A DNA stretch of 64,000 bases from Acidobacteriota bacterium (GTDB lineage: Bacteria; Acidobacteriota; Terriglobia; Acidiferrales; UBA7541), in the NCBI GenBank assembly GCA_013289585.1, contig JABCZR010000007.1, positions 1 to 64,000 on the forward strand, in the 5' to 3' direction. Positions 1 to 24,737 of this stretch are shown one piece after another. Under the pieces are notes generated by a model. That model was not told where the DNA came from. It was given only the letters and a program-made list of their open reading frames with translations, and did not search any database. Positions within the stretch are counted from its first letter, which is position 1; every line of letters begins with the position of its first letter. A program made the position numbers and the translations under genes.

Positions 1-60
1 AGACGCTCTCAGAACAGAATTGTTAACAGCCAGGCCGCAACGAAATACGCGACCAAGTGT

Positions 61-132
61 CAACTCCTGATTTGTCGCATAAACGGACGTATAAAGTATT
101 ACTTGTCCGGTTTCCGCGTTTACCAGGCACTG
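61..132 (-). repeat. Attachment-site-like palindromic element, copy a
   Basis: On the plus strand the left arm begins CAACTCCTGATTTGTCGC and the right arm is GCGTTTACCAGGCACTG. The arms are imperfect inverted repeats. An inner stem is formed by AAACGGAC at 81-88 and GTCCGGTTT at 105-113, closing over a loop that contains TATAAAGTATTACTT. The same 15-nt loop string recurs in copy d. It sits 69 nt upstream of the first gene. Confidence 0.7.
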
Positions 133-200
133 AGCATCAAGTACGTGATTCGGGGCCAAACTGCACGCCAAATCTGATGCTGATATGCTAAGCACTTACC

Positions 201-1097
201 ATGCAGAACGTGAAAGTCACATCCAAAGGCGAGAAAGGCCCCGTACCAGCGCGCCTGTTCATGCTCTTTGCGCGAAAATCACCGATGGCCGTTATTTTTC
301 GACGTGGCCCCTCCAAGTGGGTACAACTCATCAAGTGGGACACGAAGTCGGACACTTTTGAGCCAGGCCAATGGTTTAATGGCCGAATTTACGAGAAACG
401 ATCTGACCTTTCGCCTGACGGCTCATTGCTTATCTATTTTGCGCAGAAAATTTCGGCGCGCAGCAAAAAAGACCAGGAGTACACCTACGCATGGACGGCG
501 ATCAGCAGGCCTCCCTATCTGACAGCGCTGGCGCTGTGGCCTAAAGGAGATTGCTGGCACGGGGGTGGTTCTTTCAAGAATGGCAGAGTAGTTCTTTTGA
601 ACCACAAGCCCGAAGTCGCAACACCACACAAGAAGCATAAGCCACATCGGCTGTTGGTAATTCCGAATCCGCAAGCGCACGGTGAAGATGATCCAATCTT
701 CTCGCAACGCCTGGAGCGCGATGGGTGGCAATTGAAAGAAACGTGGCAAGTCGAGAATCGTGGATACCCGAAGATGTTTCACACGATTCAACCGGAGGTA
801 CGTCAGAAGGCTAATCCGAGCCGCACGCACGTAATCCAGTTGACGCGGTCCATCGAGTGTCACGACTACGCGGAGGATTTTGCTCTTCGAAGCGCGAAGC
901 AATTTCATGTCGCGAACATTGCGAGGGCCAGCTGGGTAGATTGGGACCAGCAAGGCCGATTGGTCTTCGCACAGGATGGGAAGATATTTGCAGCCTCCAT
1001 CAAGAGTGACAGCGATCTTGTTGAAAAGCTGCTCGTCGATCTGAATGCGTCGAAACCTAAGCCACTGCCTTCTCCTGAATGGGCAACGAAATGGTGA
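201..1097 (+). CDS. Hypothetical protein, cassette gene 1
   Basis: This 298-residue protein matches no family I recognise. It has no signal peptide or membrane segment and is rich in Trp, Lys and Pro. Phrases such as LSPDGSLLIYFAQK and WVDWDQQGRLVFAQDGKIF look like blades of a beta-propeller, so a cytoplasmic propeller fold is possible, but this is only an impression. It starts with ATG at 201, 69 nt after copy a of the array element. Its TGA stop lies 8 nt before copy b. It is on the opposite strand to the next cassette genes and to the recombinase. The tight fit between two elements is what one expects of a single-gene cassette. Confidence 0.65.
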   Translation: MQNVKVTSKGEKGPVPARLFMLFARKSPMAVIFRRGPSKWVQLIKWDTKSDTFEPGQWFNGRIYEKRSDLSPDGSLLIYFAQKISARSKKDQEYTYAWTAISRPPYLTALALWPKGDCWHGGGSFKNGRVVLLNHKPEVATPHKKHKPHRLLVIPNPQAHGEDDPIFSQRLERDGWQLKETWQVENRGYPKMFHTIQPEVRQKANPSRTHVIQLTRSIECHDYAEDFALRSAKQFHVANIARASWVDWDQQGRLVFAQDGKIFAASIKSDSDLVEKLLVDLNASKPKPLPSPEWATKW

Positions 1098-1105
1098 CGC
1101 GCACC

Positions 1106-1188
1106 ACTGGCTCCTGATAAGTCGCCTTACCGGACATTGAGGATTGGGCCAATTCCACTCCGGTTTGCGCGTTTACAAGGTACTGACC
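1106..1188 (-). repeat. Attachment-site-like palindromic element, copy b
   Basis: On the plus strand the left arm reads CTCCTGATAAGTCGC and the right arm reads GCGTTTACAAGGTACTG. The left arm contains the inner inverted repeat GTAAG-like/CTTAC around TCGC. The paired arms leave one unpaired T in the left arm, as in copies a, c and d. It begins 8 nt after the stop of the first gene and ends about 20 nt before the stop of the next, convergent gene. Confidence 0.7.
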
Positions 1189-1208
1189 AGGCTGTGGAAT
1201 GGGACCGT

Positions 1209-1694
1209 CTAGCGCTTGCACATCCAAATATTGCCCACACGCTTCAACCGGAATTTTATGGGATTGGCAACTCCCTCTACTCTTATCGTTCCTCGGAACT
1301 GAGTTGAATCAAGCATCCCTTCTATTCTGACGAGCTGTGTTTTGACAATTTCCTTTTCAGAGGGATGTTCGATGAGGTGCTGCACCCAGCTTCCTTCTAC
1401 CGTTAACTTCCCGTCAGAAATCTTCCCGGACATACTTATGCCGTCCTCATTTGGCTCGCCTTGATAAATATAGAGCCGTGCATCAATGGCATGGTCATGG
1501 AGCTGATGAAGCGCCAGCTCATATCCAACGACATCGCCTGCTTCTTTGGAGAAAAACGCATTTGAATAAATTTGCATGTGAGCGGTCCGAGAACATTCAT
1601 CCTCGGATGCGTTAGGATTTGCGCTAAGACAAGCCCACGGGGTTAAGCCGACCAACAACGCGAGGGTAACGCGAACTCCACTGCGAAATCTCAT
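1209..1694 (-). CDS. Exported hypothetical protein, cassette gene 2
   Basis: A protein of about 161 residues with an N-terminal signal peptide (MRFRSGVRVTLALLVGLTPW followed by ACLSAN), so it is probably exported. A Cys at the end of the hydrophobic stretch could be a lipobox, but the context is weak. The mature part is a small, probably beta-rich domain with Cys residues near both ends of the mature chain (DECSR and WMCKR), possibly disulphide-linked. I do not recognise the family. The ATG at 1694 is preferred over an upstream GTG at 1712 because it gives a normal signal peptide. It lies between elements b and c, in the same orientation as the recombinase. Confidence 0.65.
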   Translation of the reverse strand: MRFRSGVRVTLALLVGLTPWACLSANPNASEDECSRTAHMQIYSNAFFSKEAGDVVGYELALHQLHDHAIDARLYIYQGEPNEDGISMSGKISDGKLTVEGSWVQHLIEHPSEKEIVKTQLVRIEGMLDSTQFRGTIRVEGVANPIKFRLKRVGNIWMCKR

Positions 1695-1738
1695 GTTCCA
1701 AAATCCTAGCACAGCTCTTTAGGGCAGACGTGAAGACG

Positions 1739-1836
1739 CCAACTCCTGGTAAGTCGCGTTACCGGACAATGAGAATTGCCTGATCGGCAAGTCCAGTCCG
1801 AGGACTTCCGATTAGTGCGTTAATCAGGCACTTGCC
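1739..1836 (-). repeat. Attachment-site-like palindromic element, copy c
   Basis: This is the longest and clearest copy. The plus-strand left arm is CCAACTCCTGGTAAGTCGC and the right arm is GCGTTAATCAGGCACTTG. These are complementary apart from scattered mismatches and one extra T in the left arm. The centre holds further pairable sequence (GATCGGCAAGTCC and GGACTTCCGATTAG). The copy fills the gap between two minus-strand genes. Confidence 0.75.
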
Positions 1837-1861
1837 AGCCAGTCTCCCTCAATTTTAATTA

Positions 1862-2602
1862 TCAATGGTCGAGGCAGGGTATCCGAAAACTCAAGGTGAC
1901 AGAAAAATTGGTTGGCTTGCCTCCAGAGGAAACTGTGAATCTCCATGTGCGAACAGTTTCCACTGCCAGCTTATCGAGAAGTTCATCCAGCGATTTCGTG
2001 ATTCGGACATCCGTGACGCTTCCATCTGGGTTTACAAGGATGGAGAGGTAAAGCTGTCCGCGACGCCGTTCGGCTCTCGCAGTCTCAGGGTAAGGAGGTA
2101 ATGGCTGAGATACCTTGCCAATAATCTTCAAATCGCCGTCCTTTTCATGTTCCGTAGGCACGATGGTTACAACTATTTCACCCACGTCACTCCCTTTGCC
2201 CTCGGGACACGCCTTGGTCATGCTGTATGTCATTTCGGCTTTGGTAGACGCGGGGGCCTTCCGAGGAGGTTCAAACTGCCACTTTTTCGCCGCATCCACA
2301 GATGACTGTAAGAGCTGCGAAGGACCGCTAAGCGGGCGAACATCTGTCACTTTTCCACGCGCATCGACTGTCAGGCACAGAACTACCGTTCCTTCGATGT
2401 TGTTCTTCTCTGCCTCCTCGGTATAAGTTCCAGGAAGCGTCTTTGTAGTTGGCTTTAGGATTTCACTAGTAGCGCATTCGTTCTGCCGAGAATTTGTATT
2501 CTGGGAGTGGGCGGTCTGTGGGGCTAAGAGATTGAAACCATAGGCGGCAAACGTAACCCAAAGAACAGCCCGGATAGATGTCCGTGGAAGACTGGGCAGC
2601 AT
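1862..2602 (-). CDS. TonB C-terminal domain protein (two domains), cassette gene 3
   Basis: This protein of about 246 residues has a signal peptide or membrane anchor (residues 1-34, ending near TAHSQ) and two TonB C-terminal-type domains, at about 57-125 (VDARGKVTDVRPL, WQFEPP) and 160-243 (VNPDGSVTDVRIT, TWRF). The family passes energy from ExbBD to outer-membrane receptors, or acts as a periplasmic scaffold. Here the protein lacks the Pro-rich linker of classical TonB. An upstream ATG at 2677 would add 25 residues, but that ATG lies inside repeat copy d, so the internal ATG at 2602 next to the hydrophobic signal is chosen. No exbBD genes are nearby. Confidence 0.8.
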   Translation of the reverse strand: MLPSLPRTSIRAVLWVTFAAYGFNLLAPQTAHSQNTNSRQNECATSEILKPTTKTLPGTYTEEAEKNNIEGTVVLCLTVDARGKVTDVRPLSGPSQLLQSSVDAAKKWQFEPPRKAPASTKAEMTYSMTKACPEGKGSDVGEIVVTIVPTEHEKDGDLKIIGKVSQPLPPYPETARAERRRGQLYLSILVNPDGSVTDVRITKSLDELLDKLAVETVRTWRFTVSSGGKPTNFSVTLSFRIPCLDH

Positions 2603-2645
2603 GTAGGTCCCTTTTGAAAACTCTACACCTGTCGCCGTCTTCCGG

Positions 2646-2720
2646 GTCAAGTCCCGGTAAGTCGCCTTACCGGACATATAAAGTATTACTTTACTTGATT
2701 GCTCGTTAATCAGGAGTTGG
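2646..2720 (-). repeat. Attachment-site-like palindromic element, copy d
   Basis: The left arm contains a perfect 8-bp dyad, CCGGTAAG-TCGC-CTTACCGG (2654-2673). The right arm is TCGTTAATCAGGAGTTGG, the best match to the inverted left-arm end CCAACTCCTG seen in copy c. It shares TATAAAGTATTACTT with copy a. An in-frame ATG in this copy adds a spurious extension to the TonB-domain gene. Confidence 0.75.
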
Positions 2721-2894
2721 CGTTCTCCATCAGCAACTGGATCAGTGTCTTTTCACTCGCCTTGAGCGCGACAGAGGGTTAATCTTTCGTGACATGGACA
2801 ATGGTGTGTTGCCGATTAAAGAGAACTAGCCAGTTCCTCCATGCTGGAAGCTATTTAGCCTGAAGCGGTGATTCTTAGCGGATCTAGTGCGAAG

Positions 2895-4448
2895 TCACTT
2901 CATTTCTTTCAGCTTTTTGAGCATTTCGACGGCATTTTGGTTCTTAGGATCGAGTTGCAGGGACTTCTCATAGTTCTGGATAGCCTTTCCCTTCTGACCA
3001 GCTTTCAAGTACGCTTCGCCGAGGCTGTCGTAGACGTTGCCGGATTGCGGGTATTCGAGCACATTTCGCTGGAAAACTGCAATTGCGTCGGGGGTCTTGC
3101 CAGCGGAAAGCAGCATGTACCCAAGCCGGTTGAGTGTGGCTTCATCCACCTTTTGCGCCAGGGAATTCGTTTTCTTCAGTTCTTCATAGTGCTGGAGAGC
3201 CGCCGGTGAACCCTTCACCTCTGCAATTAGAAACAACGTCGTCATCGTGTCACTTCCGGTCTTGTAGTTCCAAGCGTATTCCCTAGCCACACTGCGGAGC
3301 AGCAAATCGCCGACAGCGATGCCGTTGTCAGAATTGGCCATTATGACGAGGCCCTTGCCGCTCTCGGTGTTCATAGTGAGCAGCGCTTGAAAGCCTTCGT
3401 CCGCTCCGTTGTGCCCAAACTGCCCGGGATTCTGCTTGTCGAGGAAGAAGCCGAGCCCCGCCTCTTCCAGCACAGGAGTGAGCATTTCGTTCGTGATCTT
3501 CTGAGATAAGACACGGTTCGACTTGCCATTCTTCGAGAGAGCGATCTCGATGGCGAAGTGGGCGAGGTCCGTGGGGGTTGTCCACAGCCCCGCAGCGGCC
3601 ATTTCCGGATAGATGTGCCATTTCTTGTGGACTTCCCTACCATCGCTATACGTTCCACCGGCCGTGACAGAGGCGCGGTTTGGAGGGAGCGGTTGTTCAT
3701 AGCTGCTATCGGCCATACCAATTTTGTCGAGCACGGTTTCGCGGAGGAGAGCAGGAAATGGCATGCCACTCACATCCATCATCAGAAGTTGTTCGATTGT
3801 GACGCCGCCACCCGAATATCGGAGTTTTGTGCCAGGCACGAAATCCACGCGAACGGGGGCGGTGTTGGTAGGTTTCTCGCCGTTAAGGATCTGAACAAGG
3901 GTTGGGAGCGGAGCATCGGCGTCATAGCCGGGGAAGCCGTGAACTGTGAGACCCCCTGTGTGGGACATCAAACGCCGCAGCGTCACCTTTTCAGATTGTG
4001 TGAATTCATTTTCCGGCACTTTCCAAGTCTTGAGTTTGTCGTTCACATTTTCGTCCAGAGCAAGCTTTCCCTGTTCGACCATGTAGAGAGCTGCTGTGGC
4101 TGCGACCGGCTTGCTGATCGAACCCGCCTGGAAAAGTGTCTTGGGCGTGACGGGCACTTTGGAGTCAGCCGCGGTTACGCCATAACCCTTGGCCCAAATG
4201 ACCTGGAAGTTGTCGATGACCGCGATGCTGAGGCCGGGAACTTTGAACTTCTCCATCAAATCCTGCAAAGAAAGCCTAATCAGGGGTTTGTCTTCGCCCT
4301 GCAGAATAACTGCGGTGTTCTCCTCAATTTGCCGGATGCGTTCGGCATTGCCAGACATGGGGGTCGATTGTGGTCTGGCGGCGGACGCCATACATGCGGT
4401 AAGGGCAACGGCAAACCCAAAACCGGTAGTCGATTTCGTGAACAGCAT
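2895..4448 (-). CDS. Serine hydrolase (beta-lactamase class C-like) with TPR tail, cassette gene 4
   Basis: This 517-residue exported enzyme has a signal peptide (residues 1-25) and a class C beta-lactamase/esterase domain. The nucleophile motif SISK is at about 110-113, a YSGGG segment stands where YxN is expected, and QFGHNGADEGF supplies the third (HxG) motif. The last 150 residues form TPR-like helices (KNQNAVEMLKKLKEM at the end). Relatives hydrolyse esters, D-amino peptides or beta-lactams, so the substrate cannot be told. The ATG at 4448 follows a GAAAGGAA ribosome site and leaves a clean signal peptide, so the longer frame to 4532 is not used. It lies between elements d and e. Confidence 0.85.
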   Translation of the reverse strand: MLFTKSTTGFGFAVALTACMASAARPQSTPMSGNAERIRQIEENTAVILQGEDKPLIRLSLQDLMEKFKVPGLSIAVIDNFQVIWAKGYGVTAADSKVPVTPKTLFQAGSISKPVAATAALYMVEQGKLALDENVNDKLKTWKVPENEFTQSEKVTLRRLMSHTGGLTVHGFPGYDADAPLPTLVQILNGEKPTNTAPVRVDFVPGTKLRYSGGGVTIEQLLMMDVSGMPFPALLRETVLDKIGMADSSYEQPLPPNRASVTAGGTYSDGREVHKKWHIYPEMAAAGLWTTPTDLAHFAIEIALSKNGKSNRVLSQKITNEMLTPVLEEAGLGFFLDKQNPGQFGHNGADEGFQALLTMNTESGKGLVIMANSDNGIAVGDLLLRSVAREYAWNYKTGSDTMTTLFLIAEVKGSPAALQHYEELKKTNSLAQKVDEATLNRLGYMLLSAGKTPDAIAVFQRNVLEYPQSGNVYDSLGEAYLKAGQKGKAIQNYEKSLQLDPKNQNAVEMLKKLKEMK

Positions 4449-4849
4449 TGAAGGAAATTCCTTTCGGCCCGGACGCGGAAATGATACACGCCTATACGCT
4501 TTGCTGGACGACGAAGTTCCCCGGTTGGCCAACTGACCGCTGAGGGTGTGGATTTTGGACTATTGGCACTTGATGTACGATAACGGCGGCGGTCTCAATG
4601 GGTCGACGCAACACTCAGCTCGAACCCACCTTGCATTGAAAACAAGAGCTAAAATCGCTGGCTAGGTTGGATCAGCCGGAACACTACCCTGGTTAGGTTT
4701 TGGCCGAGTACAGCCAAACAGATGGGTTCTTCCGGGGAAGCATTGTCGAATCAACGCATTGGATGGTGTTGCAGCGACCGGTTGAGCTGGCAGCGTTAAT
4801 CAGGACTTGGACCATCATTCCAAGCCGTATCAAATTCGCTCGAGTAATC
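4449..4849. other. Intergenic stretch holding array element e
   Basis: About 400 nt between the hydrolase start and the lipoprotein stop. It must contain the hydrolase promoter and ends with half-site e. A weak left-arm match (CCTGGTTAGG at 4688-4697) could make a complete but degraded element of about 125 nt. No open reading frame here looks real. Confidence 0.4.
4793..4810 (-). repeat. Attachment-site-like element, half-copy e
   Basis: The right arm GCGTTAATCAGGACTTGG is intact and matches copy c at all but two or three positions. The left arm is missing or badly decayed (possible trace at 4688-4697). It lies 40 nt beyond the 3' end of the beta-propeller lipoprotein gene, the expected place for a site following a minus-strand cassette gene. 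Confidence 0.6.
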
Positions 4850-6631
4850 TTATGTGCCTATCGTCCCTATGAGCGTCAAGGCACCGGTGGCAGCATCGAT
4901 GCTGTACATGGAGACGTCGTTCGAGCCGGAATTCGTCACATAGGCGAACTTGCCGGACGGATGGATGGCTATCGAGGTAGGATTCGATCCCGCAGCTATC
5001 ATTCCTGTGGACGTTAGGGCTCCTGTGGTCGCGTTGATGGTGTACATCGAGACATCGTTCGACTGGAAATTCGTCACATAGGCAAACTTGCCGGTGGGGT
5101 CCACGGCCACGGATAAAGGAATTGTTCCTGCAGCTATCGACCCTATAGACGTCAAGATCCCCGTGGTGGCGTTGATGCTGTACATCGATACGTCGTTCGA
5201 GCCGGAATTCACGACATAGGCGAACGTACCGGTAGGATCCACGACTATGGAGATGGGGGCCGGTTCTGCGTTTATTGTTCCTGCTGCTACAGTTCCAATG
5301 GACGTTAAGGCGCCGGTCGTGGCGTTGATGGTGAACATCGATACGTTGCCAGCCGATCCAGGAGTGCCGCTCGCAGTCGCGAGATAAGCGAACTTGCCAG
5401 ATGGATGCACGGTCACCGAGACGGCAAAGCCGTCTACTGGGATCATTCCTGTGGACGTTAAGGCGCCGGTCGTGGCGTTGATGGTGTACATCGCGACGCT
5501 GTTTGGCTCACCGGCCCCATTCGGCACGTAAGCGAACTTGCCGGATGGATCCACGGCCACCGACTCGGGAACGCACAATCCCTGGCAATTCCCCATTATC
5601 GATCCTGTGGACGTTAACGCCCCAGTTGTGGCGTTGATGGTGTACGACACGACGCTGCCATCATTGCTAAAATCATCCCCCGCATTTGCCACGTAGGCGA
5701 ACTTGCCAAACGGATCTACGGTCACCGATTCGGCGGTGTAATCTAGAGAGGACACCGGCGGTCCTATGGGCGCTAGGGCGCCGGTGGCGGGGTTGATCGT
5801 GTACATGGACACGTAGCCAACAACGCCACCATTGCAGCCCGCATTCGCCACATAGGCGAACTTTCCGGCAGAATCCACAGCGATCGACTGCGGAGCAACT
5901 CCTCCTGGCGTTGTGGTGAAGGTCAAGGAGTTCGAGCTACCACCGCCGGGTGGAGGATTGAAGACTGTGACCGCCGCTGTCCCTGCTGCGGCAATGTCAC
6001 TCGCCGGAACCTGAGCGGTGAGTATTGTCCCCAAGCTATTGCTATCAAGAGTGGTCGGCAGGTCGGTGCCGTTCCAGCGCACGACTGAGCTGGGCACAAA
6101 ATTGCCCCCACTTATAGTAAACTGATTATTTACTGAATCAACGAACTGTTCTCCTGCGGGGACGCAGTTTGGATAGAAAGAATTGATCGTCGGGACGGGG
6201 TTAGGGCCGCCGCTGGTGATGGTGAAGTTTATCGGATTGGAGGTGCCACCGCCGGACGCGGGGTTGGTCACTGTCACGGCCAGCGTGCCGGTTGAGGCGA
6301 TGCTGGAAGCAACGATGGCCGCAGTCAACTGCGTGGAGTTGACGAACGTGGTGGCGGGCGCTGCCCCGCCGAAGTTGACCATTGAAGCAGCGACGAAATT
6401 GGTCCCATTGATCGTGAGCGTGAAAGCCGCACCACCGGCCGCGGCAGTGTTCGGCGAAATTGTGGTGATCGTCGGAGTGGGTGACGGGGACTGATTGTTG
6501 ACTGACTGGCCCGTGCCTCCTCCGCATCCCCACACGCCGATCACCGTGGCGATAACGAGTGCAAAGGCTCCCAAATGAAATCTCACGTTCGTGAATGATC
6601 TAAGTAGCTCGAGTGTGCGCGAATTTTGCAT
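4850..6631 (-). CDS. IPT/TIG-domain lipoprotein with YVTN-type beta-propeller
   Basis: The protein has about 593 residues. A lipoprotein signal ends in VIGVWGC. Two IPT/TIG Ig-like domains follow (about 50-130 and 135-230, each ending in NPxxGGGxSN), then a seven-or-more-bladed propeller in which units like [11 protein letters not shown] and [17 protein letters not shown] recur every 45-50 residues. It resembles the lactonase/YVTN surface-protein family common in Acidobacteria. Enzymatic activity is not shown, and binding or surface display is likely. The blade repeats are nearly identical at DNA level, so unequal recombination is plausible. ATG 6631 has GAGG six bases upstream. It shares the interval between elements e and f with the regulator at 6933. 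Confidence 0.8.
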
Positions 6632-6932
6632 CGTCAACCTCAATGCCGCGATCGCGATAGCACCAGAAAAGTCATCAAGGGCGTCATTAAACGATCAGAC
6701 TGAGAATCCGCCCAAAGTAGATCGCAGAGTGTCCTTTCTCGGCATCGCGCCGCCAAAACTGCCGCGGACTGGCATGAGGCGCAATGGTGGGGGCATGGTC
6801 TGTGGATGTTTTTGTTCTGATCGTGCAGCTCTTTGAATTCAGGGGGGTTGCGGCAATCTCGTAAGTAGTCCGGCCGATATTCCTTCCGCCCACTCTTTAG
6901 TGGTAAACTGCCGCCACGCTCGAAACCTTCCT

Positions 6933-9239
6933 ATGGCACTTACCGCCCGAACACGCGGGGCCCGCTTCGGCGACTTCGAGGTGGACTTGCGTTCGGGCGA
7001 GTTGCGCAAGCACGGCATCCGCCTGAAGCTTCAGGATCAACCTTTCCAGGTGCTCGCCCACTTGCTGGAACATCCCGGTGAAGTGGTTACACGCGAGGAA
7101 CTCCGTCAGAAGCTCTGGCCTGCGGACACTTTCGTTGACTTCGATACCGGTCTGAACAGCGCCATCAAGAAGCTGCGCGATGCGCTGGGCGATTCAGCCG
7201 AGGAACCCCGCTACATCGAGACTCTGCCCCGCCGCGGCTACCGCTTCATCGCTCACGTGGAAAACGGCGACCTGCCTGCTGCGGTTTCCATCGAAAAACG
7301 ACACGCGACGGTTCCCCCGGTCGCGCCAAGGTCTGAACCTCCGAAGAAACGCCGCTTCATCGTGGCGGCTGCCGTCGCAGCCTTCGTCGTAGTTGCCGCC
7401 CTTGTGACCTGGCGCGTCTTCTTCGCCCGGCCGGCGCTGACCGGGAGCGATGTCATTCTCCTGGCGAGTTTTGTCAACAAGGCTGGCGACCCCGTCTTCG
7501 ACAATCTGGATAAGGCGCTCGAAGTCAAGCTCGCCGAGTCGCCTTTCTTGAGCCTCCTGCCGGAGGCGGCGGTCCGCCAAACGTTGCGCTCGATGCGTCA
7601 TGAACCCGATGAGCGTGTTACGCAGGAACTCGGTATCGAAATCTGCAAACGGCAGGGTTTGAAGGCCGTCGTAGTCCCCGAGATTGACGCGATCGGGAGC
7701 TACTACCTGATCACTCTGGAAGCAATCGATGCGCAGAGCGGAAAACAAATCGCGCGGCAGCAGCAGGAAACAGACAACAAAGACAAAGTCGTGGCCGCCC
7801 TGGGAAAAGCGGCTTCGCAGTTGCGGCGGCAATTGGGCGAAAGCCTCAGTTCTCTGCAAAAGTACAATGCGCCGCTTGCTCTTGCCACGACCAGCTCCCT
7901 CGAGGCGTTGCAAGCCTACCGGACGGGCGTGCAGCGGAATCATTCGGGGAAGATCCGCGAGTCCATTCCCTTCTTTGAACGGGCCGTCGAGCTGGACCCG
8001 CAGTTCTGTTCTGCGTACATCATGCTCGGCAGTTCCTATCACGGAATCGGCGAAGACGAGGCTTCGCGGAAGAATTTCGCCCGGGCCTTTGAACTAAAAG
8101 ATAAACATCTTACGCAAGAAGAGAATTTTCTGGTTACCGCTACTTACTACTGGAACATAACGGGTAACCTCGAGAAGGAAAATGCCGTACTCACGTTGTA
8201 TCAGCAAGTGTATCCGCGCAGCGTCAATGCCGCGAATTTATTGGGAATCAACTACGCGCTGCTGGGGAGAAAGGAAGAGGCGCTGCAGGAGTTCAACTGG
8301 ACCATCGACCATTCCCCGGAACCCTCCGCCTTCGCTTACTCCAATAAGAGCCAAGCGCTCATGTCGCTCGGCCGGTTTGACGAGGCCAAGGCAATACTCA
8401 ATCAATGGCAGCAGAAAGGCTCGCTCTTCTCCTATCAGACGGACATGCTCTACCGTATCGCCTTCATCCAGAACGATACCGCCACGATGGACCGGATTGC
8501 CCGGGAGGCTGCGCCCGATGATACCGGCTGGCTCCAATTGCAGATGCAGTTCGCCTATCTACGCGGAGACATCAAGAAGTTCCGCTCACTCAGCGAAACC
8601 GAGGTGAACCTCGAGACACGCGGCGGCCAGGCGCAAGACGCCGCGGACGATCTTGCTGCGCGCGCCCAGCTCGAATCGTTACTCGGAAACTACGGCTTGG
8701 CTCGCAGCCTCTGTCGCCATTCCGTGGCGGGGGACACCGACGGCGCTACCGAGCTGTGGCGCTGTGCCGAAGCATTCGCAGACGGCGGCGATTTCACCCG
8801 CGCGGAAGCACTGGCGGCGAAACTCAACCGCATTGCTCCCGAAAACACCATCGAACAGAAAGTTCATCTGCCGCTGATTCATTCCATCGTGGATCGCCAG
8901 CGAGGAAACCCCTCGGAAGCCGCCGATTTGTTGCTCCAACCCGAACTTTACAAACACACGCTGGACGTTCCATATCGTCTCGGGCAGGCCTACTTGGCGT
9001 CAAACGAGCCGGCTAAGGCGGCCGCGCAGTTCCGAATGGTCCTCGATGCCCGCGACGCGGGCTGGTGGCAAGTGTACGCCCCTCTCGCCCAACTTGGCCT
9101 CGCGCGTGCCTATGCCGCGGAAGGGGATCGTGAGAAAAACCGTAAAGCCTACGAGGATTTTTTCGCTACGTGGAAAGAAGCAGACCCGGACATCCCCATC
9201 CTCAAGCAAGCCAAGGCCGAATACGCCAAGCTGCAGTGA
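6933..9239 (+). CDS. Winged-helix transcriptional regulator with TM segment and TPR sensor (CadC-like)
   Basis: The protein has 768 residues. Residues 1-105 form an OmpR/PhoB-type winged helix (FGDFEVDLRSGELRKHG, VTREELRQKLWP, RRGYRFIAHV). A membrane helix lies at about 145-170 (IVAAAVAAFVVVAALV), and the rest is a long extracytoplasmic region of TPR-like helices. Such ToxR/CadC-type one-component regulators sense in the periplasm and bind DNA in the cytoplasm. ATG 6933 is used because it opens directly into the wing domain. A GTG at 6900 would add 11 residues. It is divergent from the propeller lipoprotein, which it may control. It lies inside the cassette array, next to half-site f. Confidence 0.85.
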   Translation: MALTARTRGARFGDFEVDLRSGELRKHGIRLKLQDQPFQVLAHLLEHPGEVVTREELRQKLWPADTFVDFDTGLNSAIKKLRDALGDSAEEPRYIETLPRRGYRFIAHVENGDLPAAVSIEKRHATVPPVAPRSEPPKKRRFIVAAAVAAFVVVAALVTWRVFFARPALTGSDVILLASFVNKAGDPVFDNLDKALEVKLAESPFLSLLPEAAVRQTLRSMRHEPDERVTQELGIEICKRQGLKAVVVPEIDAIGSYYLITLEAIDAQSGKQIARQQQETDNKDKVVAALGKAASQLRRQLGESLSSLQKYNAPLALATTSSLEALQAYRTGVQRNHSGKIRESIPFFERAVELDPQFCSAYIMLGSSYHGIGEDEASRKNFARAFELKDKHLTQEENFLVTATYYWNITGNLEKENAVLTLYQQVYPRSVNAANLLGINYALLGRKEEALQEFNWTIDHSPEPSAFAYSNKSQALMSLGRFDEAKAILNQWQQKGSLFSYQTDMLYRIAFIQNDTATMDRIAREAAPDDTGWLQLQMQFAYLRGDIKKFRSLSETEVNLETRGGQAQDAADDLAARAQLESLLGNYGLARSLCRHSVAGDTDGATELWRCAEAFADGGDFTRAEALAAKLNRIAPENTIEQKVHLPLIHSIVDRQRGNPSEAADLLLQPELYKHTLDVPYRLGQAYLASNEPAKAAAQFRMVLDARDAGWWQVYAPLAQLGLARAYAAEGDREKNRKAYEDFFATWKEADPDIPILKQAKAEYAKLQ

Positions 9240-9298
9240 TTTCTGGTTGAGTTCGGTTGCTGCGCCTGGCGAATTTTGCATTTTCCCCCAATGAATCT

Positions 9299-9330
9299 AA
9301 CTTGCCTGGTAAGTCGTGCCGGACATGTGG
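9299..9330 (-). repeat. Attachment-site-like element, half-copy f beside the recombinase
   Basis: The left arm reads AACTTGCCTGGTAAGTCG, followed by TGCCGGACAT as in the other copies. No right arm is visible before the recombinase stop at 9342. A single arm next to the recombinase is what an attI-like primary site, or a truncated cassette site, would look like. Read on the minus strand it contains GTTAGAT, which matches the classical attC core GTTRRRY. That could be chance. Confidence 0.55.
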
Positions 9331-9341
9331 TTTTGAAGCCT

Positions 9342-10289
9342 TCACGGGCCGGGTTCAATTCCGATCTTGTCGTTTACTGCCTCTCTCAATCGCTGTTTGC
9401 ATCCGAGATACTTTTCCGTGGTCTGAACCGAGACGTGGCCCAGCAGAAACTGGATCTGTTCCAGCTCGCCCCCGGCGCTGTGGCAGAGACGAGCACACGA
9501 CCTTCGAAGGTCATGGGGCGCGAGTCTTACGATTCCAACCTGGCCTGCGTACTGCTTGACGACGTGCCACACCACCTTTTCGGTCATTTCCGTGCCCCAA
9601 GTCGTTCCCGTCCTGCAGACGCAGCGAAATAGGCGCCCGTTCGCGACGCTCGACGCTGCGAGCCAATCATCGACGGTTTGTTTGACCCACAACGGCACTG
9701 GTATGGTTCGAACGTGACCAGCTTTTCCTATCAGATCGACGATGGCCCAGTGATCCTCGCGACGTTGGAAGTGGTCAACCGTGAGTTCCGTCAGTTCGCG
9801 ACGCCGCAGGCCACACCCCAATAGCAAAGCAAGGATCGCGCGGTCGCGCTTACCCTTCAATGTAACAGGATCAGGGAGTTGCCAAAGCGTTCGAGCTTCC
9901 TCGGCCGTCAGCCAGTTCCCGAGGCGGCACCCGAGCTTCTTGGCGCCCTTCACGCGACGGATACCCGCGGCCAGGTCCGGGCTCAGGAGTCCGGTATCTG
10001 CTGCTTCATAGGCGAGTCGTCGGACCGCTGCCAGCCTGACGTTTATGGTCCCTGCAGCCAGATGCCGATCTTCGAGATGAAGCCGATAACGGAGAACGAC
10101 CGCTTTGTTAAAAGAAAGTCGCGGTGTGGAGCAATACCAGGCAACAAACTCGTCGATTGAATGCCGATAACTTCGCTGCGATTCGAACGATCTCAAGCTT
10201 ACGATTACAGCGATCTTGGCTTGCTCCAGATCGGGAAGGCCGAGCTTCGTTTTCAGTCGGTTATGCCTGCTCTTGAGCTTGCGCTTCAT
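9342..10289 (-). CDS. XerC/D-like tyrosine recombinase (site-specific integrase)
   Basis: This recombinase of about 315 residues has an N-terminal SAM-like core-binding domain (about 25-125) and a C-terminal catalytic domain. The catalytic set is complete: Arg in CGLRRRELTEL, HDLRR (HxxR), LLGHVSVQTT, and the nucleophile Tyr in TTEKYLG. The ATG at 10289 has a strong GGGAGG site 8 nt upstream, so the longer frame from 10358 is rejected. I see no IntI-specific insertion between the second catalytic Lys region and HxxR, so it is not a canonical integron integrase. It is transcribed toward half-site f and the cassettes. Its proposed role is cassette insertion and excision. Mobilising a genomic island is the alternative. 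Confidence 0.85.
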   Translation of the reverse strand: MKRKLKSRHNRLKTKLGLPDLEQAKIAVIVSLRSFESQRSYRHSIDEFVAWYCSTPRLSFNKAVVLRYRLHLEDRHLAAGTINVRLAAVRRLAYEAADTGLLSPDLAAGIRRVKGAKKLGCRLGNWLTAEEARTLWQLPDPVTLKGKRDRAILALLLGCGLRRRELTELTVDHFQRREDHWAIVDLIGKAGHVRTIPVPLWVKQTVDDWLAASSVANGRLFRCVCRTGTTWGTEMTEKVVWHVVKQYAGQVGIVRLAPHDLRRSCARLCHSAGGELEQIQFLLGHVSVQTTEKYLGCKQRLREAVNDKIGIEPGP

Positions 10290-10374
10290 GGTTAGCCGCC
10301 TCCCGACGACTAGCCATATCAGACTCCCCTTTTGGCAGCTCTCTGTCCGAGTGCCCAATTAAGGTCTCTGTGCG

Positions 10375-10409
10375 AAACCTAAGTGATTGCAATACCACGT
10401 CTTAGGTTT
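10375..10409. promoter_or_regulatory. Inverted repeat upstream of the recombinase
   Basis: AAACCTAAG (10375-10383) and CTTAGGTTT (10401-10409) form a perfect 9-bp inverted repeat with a 17-nt spacer, 86 nt upstream of the recombinase start. It could be an operator, an arm-type recombinase site or a terminator for the preceding gene on the minus strand. Poor T-richness after it argues against a terminator. Confidence 0.4.
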
Positions 10410-24485: not shown

Positions 24486-24737
24486 CTAATCCTCGTTGAA
24501 CTGGTTCCGCTTTTTGTAGGCCATCACCGTCAGCCCAATGCAGATCAGCACCGGGGGAACGACCAATATAAGGATACCGCTGCGTAAGGCCTGGATTACA
24601 CGCGAGCCGGCACCGGCAGCTTGCGTGTAACAGAGCGCGCAATTTTGCCCAAAGGTCGAGCAAGGAATCCAGAGGGGCGCGAGAAAAGCCATCATCCGGC
24701 ACAACCAGCGGGTTCCGATCGTAATTCTCGAATTCAT
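24486..24737 (-). CDS. Small membrane protein at the end of the oxidase operon
   Basis: The protein has 83 residues, with an N-terminal hydrophobic signal or helix, a CALCYTQ segment, and a second helix (ILILVVPPVLICIGLTVMA) followed by a basic tail. The two Cys in CxxC could bind metal or form a disulphide. I recognise the pattern as a small protein that accompanies acidobacterial caa3-like oxidase operons, but no function is known to me. It lies 30 nt after the subunit IV gene on the same strand. Confidence 0.65.
   Translation of the reverse strand: MNSRITIGTRWLCRMMAFLAPLWIPCSTFGQNCALCYTQAAGAGSRVIQALRSGILILVVPPVLICIGLTVMAYKKRNQFNED

Follow-up and report, generated by a model that had tools for sequence, protein, structure and literature searches.

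The window analysed here comprises bases 1 to 64,000 of contig 7 of a 4.73 Mb, 32-contig assembly of an Acidobacteriota bacterium, and carries at its left end an array of palindromic elements (a to f) that lie between unrelated genes and adjoin a tyrosine recombinase gene. From comparison with related DNA, the array and the recombinase probably represent an integron-like gene-cassette system that is served by a non-IntI tyrosine recombinase and is not itself an integron. The plan of the elements, their clustering, breakpoints within their core sites in new contexts and, at several loci, matching box types of elements and recombinase-flanking sites can be read from the sequence. Catalysis would presumably be carried out by the recombinase of the window, and circular cassettes presumably exist. 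A separate system of this kind had been proposed in the initial annotation of the stretch, and the breakpoints, the phylogeny of the recombinase, its missing IntI stretches and the two-site plan that it shares with the elements argue for it.

Elements a (55-137), b (1102-1192), c (1734-1840) and d (2642-2722) were located on the plus strand with covariance model R1 and a position weight matrix (PWM); all four have one orientation and are full palindromes composed of a left core site, a loop and a right core site. Each core site consists of two inverted boxes around a short spacer of about 6 nt. The left core site has the consensus CAACTCCTGGTAA-GTCGCC-TTACCGGACA and the right one, which is inverted to the left, TCCGGTTA-GCGCGTT-AATCAGGCACTTG; the presumed coding strand reads box-AAC-GC...loop...GGC-GAC-box. 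The boxes are of the CCTGGTAA/TTACCAGG or the GTCCAAGTGG types, and the loop between the two core sites varies in type and length among copies, that of c being the longest among a to d. When 20 copies were aligned, GTC was found in the left spacer of 18 of 19 copies and GTT in the right spacer of 18 of 19, as counted in the aligned rows among copies with letters at the position, copy C20 being shortened. Two inverted core sites flanking a variable loop are also the form of attC (R''L''...L'R'), whose boxes have the consensus GTTRRRY/RYYYAAC. This consensus is not matched by the 20-copy consensus boxes CCTGGTAA and TTAATCAGG, in agreement with the initial annotation, which had found the GTTRRRY core missing from most elements. 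An RNA gene was considered as the identity of the element and rejected; a search of the first 11 kb against Rfam at E up to 5 returned nothing relevant, the sole match (13.7 bits) lying elsewhere than the elements.

The six copies or half-copies that had been counted initially are not equivalent. Elements a to d are full copies with R1 scores of 77.8-93.1 bits; R1 was built from these four, and their independent support comes from the further copies elsewhere in the genome. Element e (4568-4812, plus strand) is a right half-site that is split into 4568-4589 and 4793-4812 by a miniature insertion, and it is weaker than a to d, its left half being decayed or absent by eye. Element f (9299-9326, plus strand, gapped PWM) is a single left-type core site with a GAC spacer. 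Position 1 of the window is a contig end inside the array, and the array is therefore truncated at its left. Past the first 10 kb of the window, no site of the ungapped PWM scan scored higher than 12.0 bits (24582-24611).

Many further copies were detected in the same genome. A blastn-type search yielded 28 element matches at E up to 10, and R1 yielded 41, weak and opposite-strand matches included. Model R3, which has 18 pairs and was built from 20 own-genome copies, was used at E up to 0.01, while a sequence-only model without base pairs (R2, from A4) was set aside. R3 identified at least 29 distinct places (34 listed of 38 matches, five opposite-strand repeats dropped). Twenty-three of the 29, those within one array not being independent of each other, are no more than 5 kb away from a contig end (sequence this close to an end accounts for 6.7% of the genome), and they involve 11 of the 64 contig ends. 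Clusters occupy the last 8 kb of contig 4, with elements spaced at about 0.3-2.5 kb, and at most the first 4 kb of contigs 6, 7 and 10; arrays likely break the assembly, which would account for the clustering at contig ends. In a comparison set of 61 draft genomes, R3 matched 31 of the 36 genomes of the genus and one of the 25 others, the latter weakly. The recombinase is patchy, with a homologue or fragment of at least 55% identity in 18 of the 36 genus genomes among the matches listed. The mean number of R3 matches was 10.1 in genomes with the recombinase (8.5 excluding the genome on which the model was trained) versus 3.8 in the other 18.

To what extent genes travel with these elements was read from retrieved loci, which were compared all-versus-all by blastn; ten pairs were inspected at their ends and L200/L211 was added later. 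In four pairs, gene-bearing units stand in different surroundings and end in core sites, in line with mobile cassettes. Two of the four shared units end exactly after CCTGGTAAGTC or a similar sequence, i.e. within the spacer. The unit shared by L104 and L233 (G000 contig 13 and G019 contig 62; 84% identity over 732 nt) has one end in a core site, exactly after ...TAAGTC or ...CAAGTC. Both ends lie in core sites in the other three pairs: L119/L231 (the end of G000 contig 11 and G019 contig 64; 90.6% over 991 nt, with a further 168-nt piece close by at 82.7%) runs from the CGTT of a right site to the ATTAGT of a left site; L222/L221, on two contigs of G033 (97.4% over 800 nt), ends exactly after AAGTC on one side and inside a left site on the other; and L221/L231 (G033 and G019; 91.9% over 308 nt) ends on both sides inside GAC-type core sites. 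The 991-nt and 308-nt units adjoin in G019, and in G033 the 308-nt unit adjoins the 800-nt unit. One end starts in a core site in L227/L234, L192/L214 and L169/L198; by eye, the last two look like IS30-type elements. At the inspected ends of L182/L224, window/L231 and L040/L085 a cassette boundary was not seen.

Sites of the same kind flank the recombinase gene. On the minus strand f reads CATGTCCGGCAC-GAC-TTACCAGGCAAG, 15 nt past the recombinase stop codon; it is a left half-site with a spacer 3 nt shorter, scores 24.6 bits with the gapped PWM, and had no equal within 3 bits on either strand of the 64-kb window when two gap positions were tried. We take f to be the attachment site at the 3' side of the recombinase module. 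At its other side, CTGTCCGAGTGCCC at 10343-10356 resembles by eye the upstream half-site of relatives (L306, L314, L274 and L279), and together with the degenerate sequence that follows it may form a 5' attachment half-site (10343-10362, plus strand). In many acidobacterial relatives the recombinase gene is flanked by outward-facing core motifs, with a GTT spacer upstream and a GAC spacer downstream, and these two spacers recur, in unchanged order, in the palindromic elements. The 3' flanks of the recombinases of G019 and G024 are alike up to GCGAACGCCACT and part exactly at the site, continuing with TACCAGGACTTAGCC or ATACGTCCAGAAGACC, which are two known box types. Upstream flanks of recombinase pairs likewise resemble each other before they part. 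Of the 43 pairs above the score limit, 34 part 60-95 nt from the start; a CCGT or GCC-GAC motif is often nearby, and CGT was close to the break in 14 of the 43, versus 14.6% of control positions. Within 90 nt past the stop codon, GGCGAC or GCCGAC with a following A or T was present at 25 of 74 loci and in 3.8% of control stretches; SCSGTT was present 45-130 nt before the start at 23 of 78 loci versus 7.5% of controls (80 loci, L248 and L273 omitted and four more without downstream sequence). A strong left-type site was found upstream at two of 21 recombinase places; in G008 it lies 67 nt and in G035 109 nt from the aligned recombinase start, with scores of 31.8 and 22.2 bits. Reading the flanks subfamily by subfamily gave a clearer picture than pooled box scans: a box-only PWM scan of 89 loci at a low threshold returned mostly background, and minus-strand boxes above 8 bits occurred within 250 nt upstream at 17.7% of 79 loci versus 11.2% of control windows. 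Few elements were found by R3 near recombinases.

What most strongly ties the recombinase family to the elements is the matching of box types, seen at a few loci. At L240 and at L247 of Occallatibacter savannae, the recombinase-flanking sites are of another box type (e.g. GACTTTACGTCAATGTGG), and full palindromic elements with such boxes are found at distances of about 1.1 kb and 5.3 kb from the upstream sites. Four further element matches at E below 1e-5 are present in the Occallatibacter genome: one shares the contig of the recombinase, at a distance of about 33 kb, and three are on contig 6. The genome also has two more members of the recombinase family, L306 and L314. A third site type, GCGCGTTTCTCAGGACTAA, was observed at positions 749, 1448 and 4038 of L210 (G019 contig 199) near a recombinase of 62% identity, which suggests further subfamilies with their own sites.

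The recombinase gene occupies 9342-10289 on the minus strand, with a probable ATG at 10289, a reading frame that is open to 10358 and its stop codon at 9342-9344. The protein matches Pfam Phage_integrase (E 2.6e-22), and the catalytic motifs R, K, HxxR, H and Y are present by eye. Its profile scores stay far under the cut-offs for XerC (TIGR02224, 112 versus 335 bits), XerD (TIGR02225, 105 versus 330 bits) and IntI (TIGR02249, 38.5 versus 265 bits). In a maximum-likelihood tree of 28 rows, the 18 family members group together on one side of a branch (100/100 support), and three IntI and seven other sequences are on the opposite side. As the initial annotation had noted, the IntI insertion is missing: aligned with IntI1, Kovacikia IntI and the IntI of G057, the recombinase lacks two stretches, of about 14 and 21 residues. 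PMC8138268 describes the insertion as incompletely conserved within the integron-integrase subgroup, yet essential for integron function. IntI above the cut-off was found in none of the 36 draft genus genomes, 30 candidates being scored in the richest genomes, and in one of the 61 genomes overall (G057). A structure model of the recombinase was mediocre (predicted local distance difference test 73.8, predicted template modelling score 0.57); its PDB matches, with TM scores of about 0.4-0.5 to an archaeal Xer, Cre, XerA, XerD and IntI4, confirm a predicted tyrosine-recombinase fold and nothing further.

Several genomes hold more than one copy of the recombinase; in the genome of the window, a paralogue with 92% identity lies on contig 13 and a partial copy with 62% identity on contig 9. 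A contig scan yielded 421 relatives, of which the best 80 were acidobacterial by name in all but one record. Relatives reside on nine viral contigs, one of them at 69% identity over almost the whole length (L318, IMG/VR), and on plasmids of Granulicella, Acidisarcina and Paludibaculum; the seven matches among phage records were all weak. The family member at L360 14992-15945 is carried as a lone recombinase by pACIX905 of Granulicella tundricola, a plasmid typed as conjugative and a possible vehicle for the system. In L200 (500-4042, G019 contig 234) about 3.5 kb interrupts the recombinase gene near the catalytic tyrosine. A blind motif search of 76 upstream regions (the window and L238-L317) did not recover the attachment site and detected just a ribosome-binding-site hairpin. 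This start-codon hairpin, with the reverse-strand consensus CGGCCTCCnnnGCC, sequesters the Shine-Dalgarno sequence in an estimated 86% of the family (expectation-maximization log-likelihood 359 versus 75-86 for shuffles), and lies at 10290-10318 on the minus strand of the window. Such hairpins are known from some insertion sequence (IS) transposases.

In the mechanism we propose, a recombinase of this non-IntI clade would recombine short core sites (box, spacer of about 6 nt, inverted box), two of which, inverted around a loop, make up each cassette element. Recombination at core sites, mostly of the GAC-spacer and sometimes of the GTT/AAC type, would excise and reinsert gene-plus-site units; unrelated single genes would thereby accumulate in arrays, with cassette junctions of the form ...GGTAAGGC-GAC-TTACCAGG... 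or of the cognate type. The two outward-facing sites beside the recombinase gene, GTT/AAC upstream and GAC downstream, would act as attI-like entry points into which units also move, f being the downstream entry point in the window. The elements and the recombinase module are built alike, as box-AAC-...-GAC-box, the interior being a short loop in the former and the recombinase gene in the latter.

Array genes of the window are rare in relatives. Elements separate single genes from a to e, as had been stated initially, and two genes (4850-6643 and 6900-9239) lie between e and f with no element between them. The a-b gene (201-1097, plus strand, 298 aa) has no match in Pfam, NCBIfam or PADLOC and was found in two of the 61 genomes, its own included. 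The homologue in G003 (72% identity) sits on the chromosome between neighbours that we take to be rpsO-like and DUF2911-like, and site scores within 1.5 kb of it do not exceed 10 bits; contig 15 of the genome of the window has the same neighbours (81, 88 and 67% identity) and no homologue of the a-b gene, which fits capture or relocation. The b-c gene (1209-1712, minus strand, 167 aa) has no Pfam match and was found in its own genome only (1 of 61). The c-d gene (1862-2602, minus strand) encodes TonB_C domains and likely starts at 2602; a longer reading frame to 2677 would run into element d. It is of a widespread kind, and its two closest homologues adjoin core sites, weak ones on both sides on G033 contig 25 (19.8 and 14.7-16.1 bits) and one on a single side on G019 contig 64 (33.2 bits). 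The d-e gene (2895-4532, minus strand, start codon uncertain) encodes a serine beta-lactamase-like hydrolase with TPR. Of ten open reading frames (ORFs) from arrays of the genome, seven remained unmatched in Pfam at E up to 0.01; ten ORFs, of which the window contributed three, were all without a PADLOC match.

The insertion in the core-site spacer of e (4590-4792, about 203 nt) is bounded by inverted repeats. A regular-expression search detected five copies of this miniature element of about 205 nt, which has no transposase and sits in core-site spacers; by eye, core-site halves are present on both sides in the window, at L040:1013 and at L047:8772, and on one side at L085:1967 and L116:7221. 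Its ends are suspected to be IS30-like. The location recalls the IS1111-attC elements of integrons.

Several observations weigh against a cassette system. The genes show no preferred orientation relative to the elements: at 126 element places, taking the nearest ORF of at least 100 aa within 400 nt among plain longest ORFs, the gene before the element, as read on the presumed coding strand, had the same direction in 52 and the opposite one in 56 cases, and the gene after it in 52 and 52. No excess of the same direction appeared with cut-offs of 90 or 130 aa or for 74 left-site places, the largest departure among the variants was 21 same versus 33 opposite, and a gene caller by which two genes of the window went undetected gave a like outcome (46:45 and 43:45). 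According to the initial annotation, an element follows each of four successive genes on the minus strand; this is true of three of the full copies a to d, the a-b gene being on the plus strand, and does not extend to these 126 places; cassette genes of classic integrons are strongly biased to one orientation. Elements were also present in 15 of the 18 genus genomes without a close recombinase among the matches listed, compared with 16 of the 18 with a recombinase or fragment, and element presence is thus independent of close recombinase presence, so that an outcome which the initial annotation had named as refuting, copies with no link to recombinase genes, is in part observed. In the proposed helix 80.5% of cells were paired across the 20 copies, versus 14-42% with the partner slid by 1-3 columns, and two helix pairs showed two-sided change; shuffles paired at 81.9%, no covariation was seen in the palindrome, and folding is for this reason not supported beyond palindromy. 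Window-type sites above 16 bits were detected on only four of 18 recombinase-bearing contigs of relatives, and the flank motifs had been picked after inspection of the data. Several recombinases nearest to arrays are broken (two frames in G008, an interruption on G019 contig 234, a stop in G033), and the L247 copy of Occallatibacter has an in-frame stop. Clean breakpoint pairs number just four, and of 434 homology ends, among which other alignments dominate, two lay within 3 nt of the crossover versus 0.55 expected. The genomes analysed are, moreover, drafts.

The strongest rival is a tyrosine-recombinase transposon, with the recombinase between two inverted core sites, whose internal-deletion copies have inserted between ordinary neighbour genes in the manner of miniature inverted-repeat transposable elements (MITEs). 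This would account for the unbiased gene orientation, for the persistence of elements in genomes without a listed close recombinase and for the bracket plan, spacers and boxes, terminal sequences included, that the recombinase module and the elements share. We nevertheless regard it as unlikely, for the gene units of 308-991 nt in unrelated surroundings end within core sites and not at the outer edge of the element, insertion of an 80-nt element does not explain the 800-nt unit duplicated in one genome (L221/L222), and the elements are clustered. A role outside gene mobility, as dispersed palindromic repeats similar to REP or BIME sequences or as host Xer sites beside a coincidental recombinase, would agree with palindromic, intergenic elements in 31 of 36 genus genomes. 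It is rendered very improbable by the breakpoints in core sites, the clustering at contig ends and the same-sequence sites beside the recombinase in several species; ordinary REP elements, disfavoured by the breakpoints, were rejected. Least probable of all is a diverged true integron or a cluster of attC sites lacking integron-integrases (CALIN), in which ordinary attC sites would have been left by an IntI that is encoded elsewhere or was lost. The layout does resemble attC arrays and the core-site pair matches R''L''...L'R' in form, but IntI above the cut-off was not found in the 36 genus drafts, Rfam offers no relevant match in the first 11 kb, the boxes differ from GTTRRRY and the non-IntI recombinase is itself flanked by sites of this kind. 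An IntI-dependent CALIN was rejected, being contradicted by the enzyme, the box sequence and the recombinase-flanking sites.

The cassette system favoured here shares with integrons, sedentary chromosomal integrons and CALINs included, arrays of mostly unknown single genes, palindromic two-core sites with variable loops, a sharp recombination point in the core site and possibly a single attachment site adjoining the recombinase gene. It differs from them in a recombinase outside the IntI clade that does not have the two extra stretches of IntI, in boxes of the CCTGGTAA/TTACCAGG or GTCCAAGTGG types in place of GTTRRRY, in attachment sites upstream as well as downstream of the recombinase gene, in the unbiased orientation and in that no covariation was seen. 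The initial annotation had likened the recombinase pointing toward the array to inverted integrons, of which Treponema denticola provides an example. In the window the recombinase gene does have the array beyond its 3' end; relatives, however, have 5' and 3' sites, so that this is no simple inversion, and the enzyme is not IntI. XerC, XerD and XerA are among the best profile or structure matches, and Xer sites likewise have two inverted boxes around a spacer of about 6 nt, whereas the present recombinase scores far under the XerC/XerD cut-offs and is of a family that forms a separate clade and is patchy, multi-copy in some genomes and associated with cassette-like arrays. As in the MITEs of tyrosine-recombinase transposons, short palindromes share ends and spacers with a recombinase-bearing module; unlike MITEs, gene-bearing units move along and breakpoints fall inside core sites. 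A description of such a system was not found in the open literature, subscription papers and preprints being mostly outside its coverage.

To our knowledge, integrons are the only known bacterial gene-cassette platform. It is conceivable, though we advance this tentatively, that the acidobacterial system is a second, independently evolved one in which the recombinase gene occupies the loop position of a large element, between the AAC and GAC core sites that also enclose the small loops, and the small sites are derivatives of this module by internal deletion. If this were true, gene-cassette platforms would have evolved more than once, and the origin of cassette sites would become testable with a concrete model in which they arise from the attachment sites of the recombinase itself. 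Recombinase relatives are present in many soil acidobacteria, including the isolate Occallatibacter savannae with its cognate elements, which makes laboratory study possible, and soil metagenomes can be searched for the system, which tools based on IntI and attC would be expected to miss.

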